In this document: positions 54,336-61,353 of the stretch, in pieces
Layout of the letters: each line of letters opens with the position of its first letter
Position numbering within the stretch: position 1 is the first letter of the stretch
NCBI RefSeq assembly: GCF_001999725.1
Contig: NZ_MDDP01000002.1
Span: forward strand, 1 to 64,000
Direction of reading: 5' to 3'
From: Cellulophaga omnivescoria
Lineage (GTDB): Bacteria > Bacteroidota > Bacteroidia > Flavobacteriales > Flavobacteriaceae
DNA: 64,000 bases
Made by a program: the position numbers and the translations under genes
The notes under the pieces: model-generated
Seen by the model: the letters and a program-made list of their open reading frames with translations, nothing else
Told to the model about the DNA's origin: nothing
Databases searched by the model: none

Positions 54336-55523
54336 TTAAAATATATTAAATTTTGTAAAGAGATTACTTACGTTAACTTTTTTTTGTGTTTTACGCCTGT
54401 TATTGGTAAAAAAATTAGCAATAGATTCTTCTATTAAACTTGCTGCATTTTTTATACTGTATTCTAACCCCTTTTTAGAGCTGTAAATTTCTAAAACATT
54501 TTTTAATCCCATTACATCTAGCTCTATCTGGTTAGCATCTAGCTTACCACAAATAGCCACTACTGGCACATTATATTTAGTTGCTAAATCTACTACACCT
54601 TTTACCAATTTTCCGTTAGTAGTTTGGCTATCTATTTTACCTTCTCCTGTAATAACATAATCTATTTTCTTACTCTTAAACATTTTTGGAACACCTGCCA
54701 ATTCTAGCAAAAATGATGTTCCATTAACAAACTCTGCATTAAAAAACGTTTTTAAACCATAAGCAGTACCACCAGCTGCACCAGCTCCTGGCACAAATGA
54801 ATGATCTAATAATAAAGAATGTTTTACAACCGAATTAAAATATTCTAAGCCCTTATCTAAATTATCTATATCTTTTGCTGTAGCCCCTTTTTGTTTTGCA
54901 TAAACTTTAGCCGCACCATTTTCTCCAAACAACGGATTTTCTACATCATTAACGGCATAAAACTTAATACGGTTTAATATGGTAACTGTAGCATTACGCT
55001 CTATTTTAAATACTTTAGATAAATTATCTCCTATAGGATTTAGTAACATTCCTTCCTCACTAACAAAAGAATAACCCAATGCTGCTGCCAAGCCCATACC
55101 TGCATCTGTAGTGGCACTACCACCTAAACCTACATAAATATTAGTGGCCCCTTTTTTTATAGCATCTTTAATAAGCAATCCTGTACCAAAGGTAGATGTG
55201 TTTTTAGCACTACGTTCTTTTGGTTTTAATAACTCTAAACCAGATGCTTTTGCTAACTCTACATAAGCTGTTTTAGTATCTTTATTGTAAAGGTAATATG
55301 TTCGTAATTTTTCTCCTATAGGGTTTAGTGTATCTACATATATTTTTTGAACCATAATTTTACATGCAACGGCATCTAAAAAACCATCACCACCATCTGA
55401 AGCTAAAATTGATTTAACCGAAGGAGATTTGTCTACTCGCTGTAAACCATTAGTAATAGACTGTATTACTTCGTTAGCCGTTAGCGAGCCCTTAAATTTG
55501 TCTGGTATAACTAAATAATTCAT
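54336..55523 (-). CDS. glycerate kinase (GlxK/GarK family)
   Basis: A 395-residue enzyme that phosphorylates D-glycerate with ATP, feeding lower glycolysis. Hallmarks of the family are PDKFKGSLTANEVIQSITNG at the N-terminus, ASDGGDGFLDAV, YVGLGGSATTDAGMGLAAAL with the Gly-rich loop, PGAGAAGGTAYGL, and YVITGEGKIDSQTTNGKLVKGV. The C-terminus after about residue 375 (NNRRKTQKKVNVSNLF) runs slightly longer than usual. It starts 1 nt after the symporter stop codon and is the last gene of the proposed glycosylglycerate operon. There it would use the glycerate released by the GH63-like hydrolase. Confidence 0.93.
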   Translation of the reverse strand: MNYLVIPDKFKGSLTANEVIQSITNGLQRVDKSPSVKSILASDGGDGFLDAVACKIMVQKIYVDTLNPIGEKLRTYYLYNKDTKTAYVELAKASGLELLKPKERSAKNTSTFGTGLLIKDAIKKGATNIYVGLGGSATTDAGMGLAAALGYSFVSEEGMLLNPIGDNLSKVFKIERNATVTILNRIKFYAVNDVENPLFGENGAAKVYAKQKGATAKDIDNLDKGLEYFNSVVKHSLLLDHSFVPGAGAAGGTAYGLKTFFNAEFVNGTSFLLELAGVPKMFKSKKIDYVITGEGKIDSQTTNGKLVKGVVDLATKYNVPVVAICGKLDANQIELDVMGLKNVLEIYSSKKGLEYSIKNAASLIEESIANFFTNNRRKTQKKVNVSNLFTKFNIF

Positions 55524-55524
55524 A

Positions 55525-57171
55525 CTAACTATATATTTGGGGAATTAAAAAACTTAAAATTAATATTAGACTAAAAAAACCTAATAATATATATACTTCT
55601 TTTATTAAAAAATCTGACTTTTTAGGGAATACATTTATTAGTAAACCTGTATTACTTTTTTGCCACCCTGTTAAATAACTTACTAGATAACTAATGCTTA
55701 AGGTAAGTAATACACCTGTAAAATTTAACCAAATCCAAAAAATATGTACACCTAAATCTATACCTACAATATTTTGCATTGTTTTAGAAAAAATAAGATT
55801 TACCAAAACACCTATTACAATACCTGCATTTATACCCTTGTAATTTACTTTTTTAGAAAACATAGCTAGTAAAAAGGTAACCAAAACAGGACCATAAAAA
55901 ACAGAGCCTATTGCATTAATAATTTCTATTACTGCACTTTTACTACCTCCAAATAAAAATGAGCTAGCCATACATACAAGTCCCCAAAAAACTACAGACA
56001 TTTTAGAAACTAATATGTATTTTTTAGATGATATTTTTTTAGAACCTCTATTAAAAAAATCTTCAACGGTTACGGCAGATAAAGAATTTACAGTAGAACT
56101 TAACGTAGACATTGCCGCAGAAAGTATACCTACCATTAACAAACCAATTAATCCATGAGGCAAATATTTAGTTATAAAAATAGGAATCATTAAATCTGCT
56201 TTTGCTCCTGTTGCTGCAAATTCTTCTGGGAAATACTTTTGCGTCATAACAGCAATATCATTTAAAAAATCTGGTGCTTTAACAACCAAGGTACCAACTA
56301 CCAAACCAATTGTGCAATACAACAATACCACAGGAAAGCGTAACAAACCATTTGCTAGCAATAGCTTACGTATAGTAGACTCATTTTTAGCAGACAATAA
56401 ACGTTGCGCTTGTGTTTGATCGCACCCATAGTATGATGCGTATAGAAAAAAACCACCTATTAACATTGGCCATAGACCATACTCCTGACCTTCTCCCACT
56501 CCCCAGTTAAAATCTACAACCTGAAGCCTTTCTGGAGCAAAACCTTCGCCTAAACCACCGTGAGAATTTAGCAAAGACCAACCATAAAATAGACATACAA
56601 TTAAACCTACAAAAAGAATTATCATTTGTATGGCATCTCCCCAAACAACAGCTTTCATACCTCCCTGCCAAGAATAAATTATTGTTATTACACTTATAAT
56701 TAATACTGTATACACATAATCTATATCTAAAACAGCTTGTAATATTATAGAAATAGTATAAACCATTACACCCGTAGCTAAAGCTCTACTTACTAAAAAT
56801 ACCACACTTAAGAGCATACGAGTAGAAGAATGAAAACGCCTTTCTACAAACTCATATATACTAACTACACCAGACCTAAATAAAGGAGGGACTATAATGA
56901 CCATTATAAAGATCATTGCTAGGGGAACAGCAAATTCAAATGTTAACCATTTCATCCCTCCTCCTAATTTTAACCCAACAAAAGCAGGTGCAGAGATAAA
57001 ACTAATAGCAGACAATTGTGTTGCCATAGTAGACAAGCTCAAAGGAAACCACCCAAGACTTTTACCTCCTAAGAAGTAGTCTTTAGAGTCTTTGTTTTCC
57101 TTAAAGAAATAGCCCATTGCCAAGAACCCAAAAAGGTAAAGCCCAACAATTGCATAGTCTACATAGTTCAT
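55525..57171 (-). CDS. sodium:solute symporter (SSS/SLC5 family)
   Basis: A 548-residue inner-membrane protein with about 13-14 helices. Family hallmarks are YFLGGKSLGWFPLSLSTMAT near the N-terminus, QLSAISFISAPAF, and YYGCDQTQAQRLLSAKNE. LSAAMSTLSSTVNSLSAVTV in the sodium-site helix is typical of SGLT-like carriers. Sugars and sugar acids are common substrates. It lies 13 nt after the GH63-like hydrolase gene and 1 nt before the glycerate kinase gene. I infer it brings the glycoside (or its products) into the cytoplasm. Its specificity cannot be read from sequence. Confidence 0.92.
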   Translation of the reverse strand: MNYVDYAIVGLYLFGFLAMGYFFKENKDSKDYFLGGKSLGWFPLSLSTMATQLSAISFISAPAFVGLKLGGGMKWLTFEFAVPLAMIFIMVIIVPPLFRSGVVSIYEFVERRFHSSTRMLLSVVFLVSRALATGVMVYTISIILQAVLDIDYVYTVLIISVITIIYSWQGGMKAVVWGDAIQMIILFVGLIVCLFYGWSLLNSHGGLGEGFAPERLQVVDFNWGVGEGQEYGLWPMLIGGFFLYASYYGCDQTQAQRLLSAKNESTIRKLLLANGLLRFPVVLLYCTIGLVVGTLVVKAPDFLNDIAVMTQKYFPEEFAATGAKADLMIPIFITKYLPHGLIGLLMVGILSAAMSTLSSTVNSLSAVTVEDFFNRGSKKISSKKYILVSKMSVVFWGLVCMASSFLFGGSKSAVIEIINAIGSVFYGPVLVTFLLAMFSKKVNYKGINAGIVIGVLVNLIFSKTMQNIVGIDLGVHIFWIWLNFTGVLLTLSISYLVSYLTGWQKSNTGLLINVFPKKSDFLIKEVYILLGFFSLILILSFLIPQIYS

Positions 57172-57184
57172 ACCTTGTTTTTAG

Positions 57185-58486
57185 TTAATTATTTAAAAAA
57201 TCTATTAAAAGTGCTGCACTCCAAGAAAAATTACCTCCACCGTAGCCTGCATCTTCTGTTCCTTTTTTACAATTAAAGTACTCATAAAAACCAAATTTTT
57301 CAATAAGCTCTACAGAGTCATCCTTAACTCGTTCTGCTAAATTATTGTAGTCGTAATTTTTTAAACCATAGAACAAAATCCAGTTCATATTTATCCAAAC
57401 CGGACCTCTCCAATATTTTTTAGGATCAAAACGGTCGCTTTCTGGATCAAAAGACGCACATAGGTATTTATCTTCTCCTCCAAACTTTGTCATCATTGTA
57501 TTTATCAATATATCTGCTCTTTCTTTGCTTGGTATATTAGCAAACAATGGAGAAAAAGAAGATGATGTAACAAAGCTTATAGGCTCATCACTTCTTAAAT
57601 CATAATGTACATAAGCACCTAAATTTTTATCCCAAAGTTTTTTATTAAACCCTTTAATACTTTTTACTTGCCACTTTACAAGCTGTGCTATTTTATCATC
57701 ATTATCACCAATTAGCGTATACAAGTTAATTAATGCTTGGTTAGACCTTATTAACATAGCATTAAATAATGGGTCTAAAACTAAAAACGGAGATAATTCT
57801 GCAATTTTAGCATCATTATAGTTATTTTCTTTAGCTATTTCTATAATATACAGGTAGTGGTCGTACTCTCTTTTACTTGGTCTTTGTGATGCGTCTACGT
57901 GTGTAGTATCTCTACGTTCAAAAGTATACTCTGGCGGATTCATAGTTTCCCAAATATCATCCCAAATAGGAGAGTTATCTGTACCTGACTCCCAATTGTG
58001 GTAAATAAAAACTAGACCTTCATCATTAACATCTCGGTTTTTATAAAAATATTTATGATTATCATAAACCTTATCTATTTGGCTTTTTATATAACCAAAC
58101 ATATCTTCTTTGTCTTTTGCTATTCTGTACATTTCTTCTAGTACAAAACCAGTTACAGGAGGCTGTGTCATACCTGTAGATTTGTACTTTTTAGATGATA
58201 CCGGACTTAAGTCTGACCGATGAACATCTGCCCCTGGAAAGTAAGTATCACTCTCGTTATGAAAAACAATGTGTGGTATAAAACCATTATCCCATTGCGC
58301 ATCTAGTAATGTTGCAATTTCTTGTTTTGCTTTAGACACATCATAATAAGCCTGACCAATTGCTATAAAACCGCTATCCCATTTCCATTGAAAAGGGTAC
58401 AATCCTTTACACGGAATTGTAAATCCTCCTGGCTGAAAATTTTCTTCTAATACATTAATGGCTTGTGATATTAACCTCTCTTTCAT
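57185..58486 (-). CDS. GH63-family hydrolase, probable mannosylglycerate/glucosylglycerate hydrolase
   Basis: A 433-residue enzyme from the ATG at 58486 (MKERLISQAINVLEEN). A start 39 nt upstream is possible, but it adds a poor Pro/Cys-rich extension. No signal peptide, so cytoplasmic. It has the (alpha/alpha)6 pattern of GH63/GH37 enzymes: PFQWKWDSGF (residues about 31-40), NWESGTDNSPIWD with the probable acid Asp170, YWRGPVWINMNW, and a C-terminal GGNFSWSAALLIDFL. The base would be Glu402 (FYEYFN) or Glu411 (GTEDAG). Length and motifs resemble the mannosylglycerate hydrolases of GH63 that also take glucosylglycerate. The linked glycerate kinase supports that substrate. An alpha-glucosidase or trehalase-like activity is the alternative. 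Confidence 0.75.
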   Translation of the reverse strand: MKERLISQAINVLEENFQPGGFTIPCKGLYPFQWKWDSGFIAIGQAYYDVSKAKQEIATLLDAQWDNGFIPHIVFHNESDTYFPGADVHRSDLSPVSSKKYKSTGMTQPPVTGFVLEEMYRIAKDKEDMFGYIKSQIDKVYDNHKYFYKNRDVNDEGLVFIYHNWESGTDNSPIWDDIWETMNPPEYTFERRDTTHVDASQRPSKREYDHYLYIIEIAKENNYNDAKIAELSPFLVLDPLFNAMLIRSNQALINLYTLIGDNDDKIAQLVKWQVKSIKGFNKKLWDKNLGAYVHYDLRSDEPISFVTSSSFSPLFANIPSKERADILINTMMTKFGGEDKYLCASFDPESDRFDPKKYWRGPVWINMNWILFYGLKNYDYNNLAERVKDDSVELIEKFGFYEYFNCKKGTEDAGYGGGNFSWSAALLIDFLNN

Positions 58487-58569
58487 AAAAAAATGTTGAA
58501 TTAAACACACTGGCGGCACTGACATCCGCCAATGTGTTTTTTAATAATTATAAACAAAAAACTACTAAC

Positions 58570-61164
58570 TTAAAATTTGAATGTTGCATTTAAAAATACT
58601 CTTGTTGGCAACACAGGACGACCTACAAAAAACTCCTCATCTGTTTGGTTGTTACCTAACCTTGGAGAACCTTCTGTAATACCATCTGAATTAAAAAGGT
58701 TAAATACTTGCGTACCTATCCTTAATGTTTCTCCCTCTTCACTTAAACTAAATGTATATCCTAAATTAAGGTTAGATATACCTATAGCATCTAATTCTAT
58801 TGTATTTGTTTCATTAGTAAACTTTTTACCAGTGTAGTTAAAATCAAAACTAGCATCTAGCTTAGCATCATCATAACTAACACCTAAAGCACTAATAATA
58901 TTTGGTTGTCTTCTTAATTCATTTCCTTCTATTGTTGGATCGTTCTCTGACTTTGTAATTTCATGATGTTGGTATGTAAAAGACCCTGTAAAAGCAAAAT
59001 TATCTGCAAAACTCCAGTTCCAAGTACCTTCAAAACCATATGTATTAGAGTCTTGCTTGTCTACATCCTCTGTAAACCCACCTCCTGGAGCGTTAATAAA
59101 ACTAACCGAACGTCTGTCTTTTAAACTAACATCATAAATAGCTGCTGTTGCAGAAAAACCAGGAACACCGTACTTAATTCCTAATTCTCCTTGAAGAATT
59201 TTTTCTGTATCGTAAGATGATGGATTGCCCAATGCATCAAACTTTGTACCTCTTAATTCTGGAAAAAAATACCCTCTAGAGAAGTTACCATACACACTTA
59301 AATTATCATTTACTTTATATAATGCCGCTGCTGCCACAGCAAAATCATCTGCATACACATGACCTCTTGTATAACTCCCATCTCCCCAAGTAACGTTATC
59401 TAAACCTGCAATACCTGTATTATCTACTAGGTAGGATGCTGTTCCTTCATTTTCTATATCTCCTGAGGCTCTTTCATATCTAATACCAAAATCTAAATTC
59501 CAACGATCTAGCTTAATTTCGTCTGCAACAAAAGCTGCTATTTTATTACTAGAAATGTTACGGTTTGTATATGCTAAACCTCTGTTTGTAACACCGTTTA
59601 CACTATAACCAGAAACATTTACCAAGCTAGGTCTATTATTGTATTCTCCTAAATACCTTGTTATAACATTAAAATCTCCTGCCTCTGATCTAGAAAAAAA
59701 TGTACCAAAGGTTAGGTTATGCACACCTGCTGTTTTGGTTAGTTTAATATCTGCCATAAGCTCTCGCAAAGGTCTGTCTCTATCTAAAATTCGGTTTTCA
59801 AAAAGTAATGCATCTGCAGCTAAAGGTTGCCCATTTAAATAAGTAAAATCTCCACTTGCTAAACCTCTAGCATCTAAATACTCTTGCTGTGTTTCTACAA
59901 CTTTTGCTCCGCCTACACCGCTACCATCTAAAAATAAATTAAACTGGTGCGCATATTTAGAGTAACGTAGTTTTGCATCTAGTTTAAAAGCATCATCAAA
60001 CTTATGCTTAAAATCTGCCATTATGTAAGATCCTTTAGTAGACACACCATCTTGTATTGGAGATGTGTAAATACCGTCTGGAGTTCTGTAAGATATGTCT
60101 TGAGCTGCAGCTGTTTGTAACGTAAAAATTTCATTACCATCATTACCATAAGGTCTTTCTCTAGAGCCACCTTCTAATGGGTAAGGTAAAAAAAACTGCA
60201 CCTGATCATCTATATACTTACCAGAAATTGTAATTGAACCCTTTTCTGTTACGTGTTTAATATTACCTCTTAACTGAAAACCTTCTGTTGGTAAACCAGT
60301 AATAATTGGTCCCTCATCATACCTGTAAAAACCAGATAATGCATAAAAGGTTTTAGAATCTTCTCCTCCCAAAGGGCCACTAGTTACAAAATCTGCTTTG
60401 TATCTAGAATTGCTACCAAACTCGGTTCTTAATGTAGTTTTTTGCTGAACTGTACCGGTAATACTTGTATAGTTTATAATACCTGCAACAGAACCTACAC
60501 CATATAATATTGATGATCCACCACGTACGAATTCTAAACTTTTAATACCTATATCGTTCCTAAAATACACATCATGTGCAGATGAGTTTAAACCAAATGT
60601 ACTTAACACGGGCATACCATCTATTTGTAATGGGTTAAACTGGTATTGGCCACCAGAAGGCAAACCTCTAACAAAAATGTTAGATGCAACCTCACCACCA
60701 CCACCTTCTGCAGTAATACCTGGTACACTACGTAGCACATCTGCCTGGCTACTTGTATTTACTTTTGCTAATTGTTTTGCCCCTAAAGAGGTTACAGATA
60801 AAGGCGTCTCTTTTTGAGATCTTTTTGTAGATGTTGCTGTAAGTAAAACCTCATCTAGTTGTTGTCCGTCTGCATTTAAAATAAAGTTTAATGTAACTGG
60901 CGATCCAGATAAATTAACTGTTTTTTCTACTGTAGTATATCCTATATATGTTACTCTTACTATTTGCGAACCAGTTAAACCAGTGCTTAACGTATAGTTT
61001 CCATCAAAATCTGATGTTGTTCCTTCACTTGTGCCTTTAATAATAATGTTTGCTCCATCTATTGGAACACCATCTGCATCTTTAACCGTACCAGAAATAT
61101 CTGTTTGACCAAACACACTTGGAATGCTAAACATTAATGCAAATGCAATAATTAGATTTTTCAT
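58570..61164 (-). CDS. TonB-dependent receptor without SusD partner
   Basis: An 864-residue outer-membrane receptor. Signal peptide (MKNLIIAFALMFSIPSVFGQ), a carboxypeptidase-regulatory-like domain (about 22-105: ISGTVKDADGVPIDGANIII, DFDGNYTLS, VTYIGYTTVEKTV), TonB-box-like DEVLLTAT, a plug (about 115-240: LRSVPGITAEGGGGEVASNI, FVRGLPSGG, IDGMPVLSTFG, FVRGGSSILYGVGSVAGIIN), and a barrel ending in RVFLNATFKF. It is shorter than SusC proteins and has no SusD gene beside it, fitting a small ligand. It is first in the operon with the GH63 hydrolase, symporter and glycerate kinase, and divergent from a LacI-type regulator. A Fur-box-like sequence upstream leaves a role in iron uptake possible. 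Confidence 0.92.
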   Translation of the reverse strand: MKNLIIAFALMFSIPSVFGQTDISGTVKDADGVPIDGANIIIKGTSEGTTSDFDGNYTLSTGLTGSQIVRVTYIGYTTVEKTVNLSGSPVTLNFILNADGQQLDEVLLTATSTKRSQKETPLSVTSLGAKQLAKVNTSSQADVLRSVPGITAEGGGGEVASNIFVRGLPSGGQYQFNPLQIDGMPVLSTFGLNSSAHDVYFRNDIGIKSLEFVRGGSSILYGVGSVAGIINYTSITGTVQQKTTLRTEFGSNSRYKADFVTSGPLGGEDSKTFYALSGFYRYDEGPIITGLPTEGFQLRGNIKHVTEKGSITISGKYIDDQVQFFLPYPLEGGSRERPYGNDGNEIFTLQTAAAQDISYRTPDGIYTSPIQDGVSTKGSYIMADFKHKFDDAFKLDAKLRYSKYAHQFNLFLDGSGVGGAKVVETQQEYLDARGLASGDFTYLNGQPLAADALLFENRILDRDRPLRELMADIKLTKTAGVHNLTFGTFFSRSEAGDFNVITRYLGEYNNRPSLVNVSGYSVNGVTNRGLAYTNRNISSNKIAAFVADEIKLDRWNLDFGIRYERASGDIENEGTASYLVDNTGIAGLDNVTWGDGSYTRGHVYADDFAVAAAALYKVNDNLSVYGNFSRGYFFPELRGTKFDALGNPSSYDTEKILQGELGIKYGVPGFSATAAIYDVSLKDRRSVSFINAPGGGFTEDVDKQDSNTYGFEGTWNWSFADNFAFTGSFTYQHHEITKSENDPTIEGNELRRQPNIISALGVSYDDAKLDASFDFNYTGKKFTNETNTIELDAIGISNLNLGYTFSLSEEGETLRIGTQVFNLFNSDGITEGSPRLGNNQTDEEFFVGRPVLPTRVFLNATFKF

Positions 61165-61235
61165 TTTTGTTGAGTTTTTAATTAAGTTAAGTTTGTAGTC
61201 AGTTATTTATATATAATACAATTGCAAAGTAAATT

Positions 61236-61254
61236 TATAATGATAATCATAATA
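61236..61254. promoter_or_regulatory. Fur-box-like sequence
   Basis: TATAATGATAATCATAATA matches the classical Fur box GATAATGATAATCATTATC at 16 of 19 positions, with 14 in a row. Its core ATGATAATCAT is palindromic. It lies 72 bp before the TonB-receptor start codon. The consensus comes from proteobacteria, so the match is suggestive only. Confidence 0.45.
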
Positions 61255-61284
61255 TTTAAGCAATTTTATTACAATAAAACAATG

Positions 61285-61294
61285 CAAACGTTTG
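61285..61294. promoter_or_regulatory. LacI-type operator 1
   Basis: CAAACGTTTG is a perfect palindrome centred on CG, inside TGCAAACGTTTG, the shape of LacI/GalR-family operators. It lies between the divergent lacI-type gene and the catabolic operon. Confidence 0.7.
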
Positions 61295-61308
61295 TGCAAT
61301 CGATTGCA
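61295..61308. promoter_or_regulatory. LacI-type operator 2
   Basis: TGCAATCGATTGCA is a perfect 14-bp palindrome with central CG. Its centre is 12 bp from that of operator 1, so two dimers could bind side by side on nearly the same face of the DNA. It ends 45 bp before the regulator's start codon. Confidence 0.75.
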
Positions 61309-61353
61309 TAAATGCTTTTTTTTGACTATATTAACTTACAAACCCCAAAGTAA

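Follow-up and report, generated by a model that had tools for sequence, protein, structure and literature searches.

Genes and sites at the locus

The window, by which we mean the whole stretch of 64,000 nucleotides of Cellulophaga omnivescoria DNA analysed here, contains a LacI/GalR-family regulator gene and, on the opposite strand, an operon headed by a TonB-dependent receptor gene, the two being separated by a divergent intergenic region of 189 bp (61165-61353; Table 1). An earlier note on this DNA had described two LacI-type sites with centres 12 bp apart in the region, and their presence at 61283-61308 was confirmed. The CAAACGTTTG at 61285-61294 extends to a 14-bp site at 61283-61296 (site 1), with an intact outer half-site and an inner half-site without its conserved G. 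The two sites are adjacent, as had been said, but rather than merely touching they are 14-mers that share 2 bp, and the spacing described as close to one helical turn corresponds to 1.14 turns and overshoots a full turn by about 51 degrees.

Table 1. Genes, predicted promoter elements and operator sites of the divergent locus in the window
Feature	Position	Strand	Basis or remark
Glycerate kinase	54336..55523	(-)	Profile match
Sodium:solute symporter (SSF)	55525..57171	(-)	Profile match
GH63-type mannosylglycerate/glucosylglycerate hydrolase	57185..58525	(-)	Profile and solved-chain matches
TonB-dependent receptor, first operon gene	58570..61164	(-)	Profile match
Predicted operon transcription start	61225	(-)	T-12...G-5 rule, Flavobacterium johnsoniae (PMC6847099)
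Predicted -7 element of the operon promoter, TAAATTTA	61230..61237	(-)	Consensus TAnnTTTG
TRTG...C, position-locked short element	61242-61251	(-)	Column conservation
TTTnG-like, position-locked short element	61261-61265	(-)	Column conservation
TGYAAW-like, position-locked half-site-like word	61268-61273	(-)	Column conservation
26-bp composite operator, TGCAAACGTTTGTGCAATCGATTGCA	61283..61308	(.)	Sequence; recurs in orthologous loci and a second LacI group
Site 1, TGCAAACGTTTGTG, TonB-receptor-gene side	61283..61296	(.)	Predicted centre ~-64 from the predicted receptor transcription start
Dinucleotide common to both inner half-sites	61295..61296	(.)	TG in the window; CG in 38/42 pairs
Site 2, TGCAATCGATTGCA, regulator-gene side, full palindrome	61295..61308	(.)	Predicted centre ~-76
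LacI/GalR-family regulator, 341 aa	61354..62379	(+)	Phe59 lever, codon 61528-61530

The regulator matched the helix-turn-helix domain PF00356 (52.7 bits, cut-off 27) and the periplasmic-binding-protein-like core PF13377 (110.6 bits, cut-off 26.5), and its closest solved relatives were CcpA and PurR; its score against the NCBIfam ccpA equivalog (201.3 bits) was below the cut-off of 442.35. As in the LacI/GalR family, a CpG-centred palindrome adjoins its gene, a likeness seen at the level of sequence only. To our knowledge, nearly all members of this family open the central CpG step with a hinge leucine. At the aligned position, where CcpA and PurR have this leucine, phenylalanine was present in all 56 orthologues compared (43/43 in the main set and 13/13 in a later one, both described below; an automated count of the main set without the truncated L021 gave 42/42). 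The residue was leucine in 42/42 other LacI loci from the same family and its neighbours, which represent 41 distinct genes because L030 and L246 are the same gene (16 of them read by eye). Under a criterion of 90% presence in orthologues and at most 20% in 14 paralogues, Phe59 was also the sole group-specific residue of the DNA-binding and hinge region. Judged by its domains, the window's group belongs to the LacI/GalR family despite this phenylalanine. A structure prediction run without alignment (mean pLDDT 37.6) was not used as evidence.

The operon brings together predicted uptake, cleavage and glycerate phosphorylation, a combination that suggests the use of mannosyl- or glucosylglycerate, and this is probably what the genes at 54336-61164 serve. 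The hydrolase matched the MGH1-like glycoside hydrolase domain PF22422 (302.9 bits, cut-off 27) and scored 319.8 bits against the glucosylglycerate hydrolase model NF047898, below its cut-off of 550. Its closest solved chain was TTHA0978 (322 bits), which we take to be the Thermus mannosylglycerate hydrolase, followed by a mycobacterial hydrolase (206 bits). At E <= 1e-50 the hydrolase was detected in 57 of the 397 family genomes, and none of the 31 genomes that encode the regulator (E <= 1e-95) lacks it. No receptor-linked mannosylglycerate locus in Bacteroidota was found in the open-licence literature.

The 26-bp unit within and beyond the genome

The earlier note had proposed a search for the same motifs elsewhere in the genome, and this search was carried out. 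At up to two mismatches, the window had two matches to TGCAAWCGWTTGCA, both inside 61283-61308; shuffled windows had a mean of 0.84, with at least two matches in 21 of 100 shuffles. The whole genome had 63 places at the same tolerance, compared with 67 for a reversed control, and a single exact copy of TGCAAWCGWTTGCA, which is site 2. On this single-genome evidence the pair is not clearly beyond chance, and the sequence alone is weak evidence; because the match counts resemble those of the shuffled and reversed controls, the case for an operator rests on conservation. The next best single site of the genome, CGCAAACGTTTGCA (G000:C17:104662-104675, or L275:1163-1176), lies upstream of an unrelated secreted protein gene.

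Conservation was assessed in 43 orthologous loci (L006-L021, L038-L042 and L102-L123, with L036 and L037 omitted as copies of L009 and L010), which are related, such that their counts are not independent events. The 26-bp composite with its 12-bp spacing was present in 42 of these 43 loci, in the form of 34 distinct 26-mers. When all spacings from 8 to 30 were allowed, 12 bp was again found in 42 of the 43 and any other spacing in at most two. The sole exception, L123, retains a single full site on the operon side, and a -7 box lies roughly as far from it as elsewhere. The pair was also present in 13 of 13 further orthologues, all from one genus code, that were fetched after the rules had been stated. 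Across the 397 family genomes, outer half-sites at gaps of 0 to 30 occurred at 31 places, versus 12 for the reversed control; a gap of 10 accounted for 11 of the 31 and no other gap for more than three. A gap-11 match in G193 falls inside a coding frame. All 11 exact gap-10 matches adjoin an orthologue of the regulator, and the 26-bp unit thus tracks the regulator gene. The sites are therefore most likely, as the earlier note had supposed, operators of the adjacent LacI-type regulator that are used as a pair, and their constant spacing fits a bound unit with possible cooperativity.

A relaxed pattern searched across the phylum returned mostly chance matches, with a reversed control of similar order in many genomes among the matches listed. 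Four matches outside the window genome, picked for a middle CG, were followed (G694, G616 and G753 not included), among which G560 and G713 adjoin a LacI gene and G465 and G612 do not. Composites with 12-bp spacing and no LacI neighbour lie at L278 and L277, in two genomes from other families of the class. Among matches of another family with 12-bp spacing, a different LacI protein came up (230 bits against the window's regulator), located at a starch locus with SusE, GH31 and alpha-amylase genes and, in G713, a TonB-type receptor. This second group, the best 30 of a longer list (L279-L310), all of one genus code and extended from G560 only, had the composite in 30/30 loci by pattern score (at least 18 of 20) and in 19/30 by a core test, in which three of four AA/TT cores are required and which is accordingly not fully sensitive. 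The middle CG was present in 29/30, one inner half-site was at full score in 27/30 and one short of it in three, and both inner half-sites were intact in none. The recurrence of constant spacing in two groups argues that the 26 bp are used as a unit. The hinge residue of the second group is leucine in 30/30; since the pair is nevertheless there in all 30 by pattern, phenylalanine is not needed for it, and the Phe lever was rejected as the cause of the 12-bp arrangement.

Regions beside other LacI genes of the family were compared in the same way (94 paralogue regions, consisting of 80 stretches from part of a longer list and 14 loci). The core test placed a 12-bp pair in 0/94 of these regions, compared with 42/43 orthologues and 19/30 of the second group, and in up to three of them at other spacings. 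A looser outer-core test gave 4/94 (L137, L022, L026 and L028) against the same 42/43 and 19/30, and an outer-arm test gave 6/94. Inspection showed that the apparent 12-bp pairs of L028, L031, L032 and L141 were the end CGs of one CG-N4-CG-N4-CG site, and that the outer-arm matches of L128 and L189 were unlike the composite. A plain palindrome test was insensitive, recovering the 12-bp pair in only 11/43 orthologues, and picked out one odd 12-bp pair among the 94 paralogues (L199). The pattern score reached at least 17 of 20 in 42/43 orthologues, and among the paralogue regions it stood at 17 in one and above this in none. Wider operator pairs lie beside several paralogue LacI genes, 20-21 bp apart at L022, L026, L028 and L124 and 88-92 bp apart at L176, L180, L183, L188, L192, L193, L194 and L198, distances that suggest side-by-side or looping arrangements.

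Asymmetry of the unit and its distance to the predicted promoter

The commonest canonical reading of the unit is TGCAAWCG-WTTG-CG-GKAA-CGWTTGCA. Across the 42 orthologous pairs the outer half-sites are kept, and both CpGs and the adjacent A/T columns (AA/TT) are invariant or nearly so. With an inner half-site defined as intact when six of six bases match, T or C being accepted at the outermost base, one inner half-site was intact and the other not in 42/42 first pairs and in 12 of the 13 later ones (54/55 in all), L271 being the sole pair of the 55 with both intact. Exactly one intact inner half-site therefore failed once in 13 as a strict law and remains a strong tendency, which the differing half-sites reported for the window follow. 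The broken inner half-site scored 4/6 in 33 and 5/6 in nine of the 42 pairs, with the window among the nine. The middle G was kept in 38/42, and the matching outer position was T in 61/84 half-sites (Fisher p ~1e-15, kinship not corrected for); retention of this G where the outer position is mostly T suggests that both inner half-sites need it.

In 30 of the 42 loci the strong inner half-site is the one towards the operon; in the other 12, the window among them, it is the one towards the regulator. Mapped on the regulator tree, the orientation of this asymmetric unit requires 7-8 changes, of which well supported branches force six. Among the 12 reversed rows the central hexamers, of four kinds, are the reverse complements of forward ones; three of the kinds are also seen forward, and TGCGAT occurs in two reversed rows and is absent from the forward rows. 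From species to species the central 6 bp seem to have been inverted, as a template switch or an inversion across the 10-bp inverted arms could produce, and because one inversion between these arms could suffice, compensating selection as the only reason for the flips is weakened.

Excerpts of a study of Flavobacterium johnsoniae place the -7 box at -12 to -5 (PMC6847099). Columns were counted in bp outward from the middle of the pair, in the direction of the operon. The best TAnnTTTG-type -7 box started at columns 58-60 in 36/42 loci, comprising 24/30 forward and 12/12 reversed ones, and at column 58 in 13/13 further orthologues (ties resolved towards 59). The unit flips without being displaced relative to the promoter, which argues that the unit is placed rather than the strong site alone. 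Over columns 21-75 on the operon side, the summed relative entropy was 22.8; 500 randomly shifted controls averaged 4.6 and reached 6.8 at most. Mean pairwise identity was 0.41-0.50 in three flank stretches, versus 0.86 in the operator half. The short elements of Table 1 occupy columns 45-54 (TRTG...C), 31-35 (TTTnG-like) and 23-28 (TGYAAW-like), and besides the -7 box the locked columns include T22, G24, G35, T45, G48, C54, C67 and C68; a -33 element at the usual place was not among the conserved columns of the window's group. The predicted transcription start puts the pair centre at ~-70 and the end of the composite at ~-58, upstream of the core promoter.

On the regulator side no column reached the same threshold and no position lock was found, the distance from operator to start codon being as short as 9 bp (L111). 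The divergent neighbour is the receptor in 41/43 orthologous loci and the hydrolase itself in two (L120 and L121). A further match, TGCAAACGAATGCA, occurs in the close relatives L011, L012, L013 and L016, close to where the receptor gene begins (~-210 relative to the regulator start), and is perhaps a downstream operator or coding sequence.

In the second group, the divergent promoter has TTG at columns 47-49 in 30/30 loci and TA at columns 70-71 in 29/30 (TTG N20 TA), amid a mean identity of 0.33-0.39, with a summed relative entropy of 23.6 versus a maximum of 9.6 in 500 shifts. This lock rests on column counts; a wide best-box scan (columns 21-135) did not single out column 70 (3/30). The operator centre is at ~-81.5, and the -7 box is 11-12 bp, or about one turn, further away than in the window's group. 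A class I-type activator would be expected to sit above the core promoter in constant helical phase; each group has a fixed distance to its predicted promoter, the two distances differing by 11-12 bp, with the start sites themselves being predicted.

Proposed mode of action and comparison with known systems

From these comparisons we infer that the regulator would bind 61283-61308 as one unit, consisting of two overlapping palindromes with four half-sites, one inner half-site being usually weakened. The most likely occupants would be two dimers: the full site would take the first, and the second would dock through the outer half-site and central CpG of the other site. With site centres at ~-64 and ~-76, the bound regulator would touch RNA polymerase at the receptor/hydrolase/symporter/glycerate-kinase promoter and, with or without a sugar ligand, would most likely activate the operon. 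Autoregulation, suggested only by the closeness of the regulator's own start, is also probable and would limit expression of that gene. The ligand may be mannosyl- or glucosylglycerate or a breakdown product. We regard this reading as a whole, activation by two dimers bound together included, as evenly poised between being right and being wrong.

Because the unit keeps a fixed, one-turn-phased distance from the predicted promoter, it probably contacts RNA polymerase rather than blocking the promoter. According to excerpts on CcpA, activation proceeds from upstream sites in a helix-face-dependent manner, and the lev operon is repressed from an upstream site (PMC3463425); excerpts on GalR describe a dimer centred at -60.5 that contacts polymerase, repressing one promoter (P1) and activating another (PMC4693257). 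With these upstream-site precedents and the fixed distance in view, we favour two co-bound dimers that activate. The sign of regulation does not follow from position alone, because GalR both represses and activates and CcpA represses lev from upstream. Simultaneous binding of two dimers, which according to the earlier note would allow a sharp switch, is plausible; a crude geometry places the core domains ~60 A apart on an assumed radius, a figure that does not show that two dimers fit.

The alternative that survives best is that the sites are mutually exclusive and hold one dimer at a time, the overlap raising local affinity or offering two positions one turn apart. Base pairs 13-14 of the 26 belong to both inner half-sites, of which a single one is fully intact in 42/42 and then 12/13 pairs, and L123 retains one full site only, suggesting that one site may suffice there. 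Single occupancy gives no reason, though, for the constant 12-bp spacing, nor for the keeping of the second CpG, the far half-site and the middle G, and we consider it unlikely while granting it real weight.

Most catabolic LacI-family proteins repress, and the regulator might likewise be an inducible repressor that is released by its ligand, acting by contact, as GalR does at OE on galP1, or by blocking an unpredicted start. Contact repression has a direct parallel in GalR at -60.5 on P1, as described in the excerpted source (PMC4693257). Against this stand the locked position of the predicted promoter, at a distance from the pair of ~60 bp for the window's group and ~70 bp for the second, the position of the composite, which ends upstream of the core promoter, and the absence from the window, at up to two mismatches, of a second operator for looping. 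Repression thus seems rather improbable. Mutual exclusion concerns occupancy and contact repression concerns the sign, such that the two are not exclusive alternatives.

The earlier note had also raised the idea that the differing half-sites bind two different regulators. The two sites do differ in sequence in the window and the genome holds five LacI-family genes, but a single half-site consensus fits both sites, which accompany this one regulator gene, and no such pair lies beside the 94 other LacI genes by the core test; this idea was abandoned as very improbable. Chance palindromes in AT-rich intergenic DNA, to which the loose genome matches and the shuffled windows would point, are refuted by the comparison and deserve practically no credence, given a composite kept in 42/43 and 13/13 loci amid diverged flanks.

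LacI-family proteins are the textbook promoter-blocking repressors. In two separate lineages of a phylum that degrades marine and gut sugars, an overlapping 12-bp pair instead sits upstream of a predicted promoter, at a distance that is fixed and in helical phase. Should the two sites truly be occupied together and activate transcription, they would provide a readable rule for finding LacI targets and promoters in Bacteroidota genomes, as well as a simple test case for two dimers that share a groove. The leucine-to-phenylalanine change of the hinge, fixed in one lineage, offers a clean experiment on DNA kinking by the LacI family. A more general operator syntax of Bacteroidota might combine co-bound dimers, a shared CpG, a weak inner half-site and phased class I-like activation at TonB/Sus-type promoters, with a hinge phenylalanine in one lineage; we put this forward as a tentative possibility that is more probably wrong than right.

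The protein family and the type of site are already known, and what distinguishes the composite is the overlapping, position-locked 12-bp pair, which we did not find published: no description of such a LacI-family pair was found in the open-licence literature, where a search on the hinge likewise yielded nothing, a weak test of absence from print. The LacI paralogues of the family likewise have CpG-centred palindromes upstream of LacI genes, but as single sites or as pairs 20-21 bp (four loci) or 88-92 bp apart (eight loci), none being at 12 bp by the core test. PurR/CcpA-type operators are of the TGCAAACGTTTGCA kind, and the composite shares with them the half-site and the central CpG; it differs in having two overlapping copies with a common dinucleotide and, in the window's group, a lever phenylalanine in place of leucine. 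Two dimers on overlapping palindromes have been shown by structures for QacR and DtxR/IdeR, which belong to other protein families and have other spacings, whereas joint occupancy of the composite is proposed here from sequence.

Two further close likenesses are to CcpA and GalR. The cre sites of Bacillus (e.g., at ackA) resemble the composite in that a LacI/GalR-family dimer recognizes a 14-bp CpG-centred site upstream of a promoter, and some operons have several cre boxes, although the excerpted text does not describe an overlapping 12-bp pair (PMC3463425). GalR at gal OE of E. coli resembles the proposed mechanism, as presented in excerpts, in being a LacI-family dimer that contacts polymerase with a sign set by the helical face, and differs from it in using one 16-bp operator together with a second 113 bp away, with looping that involves HU (PMC4693257).
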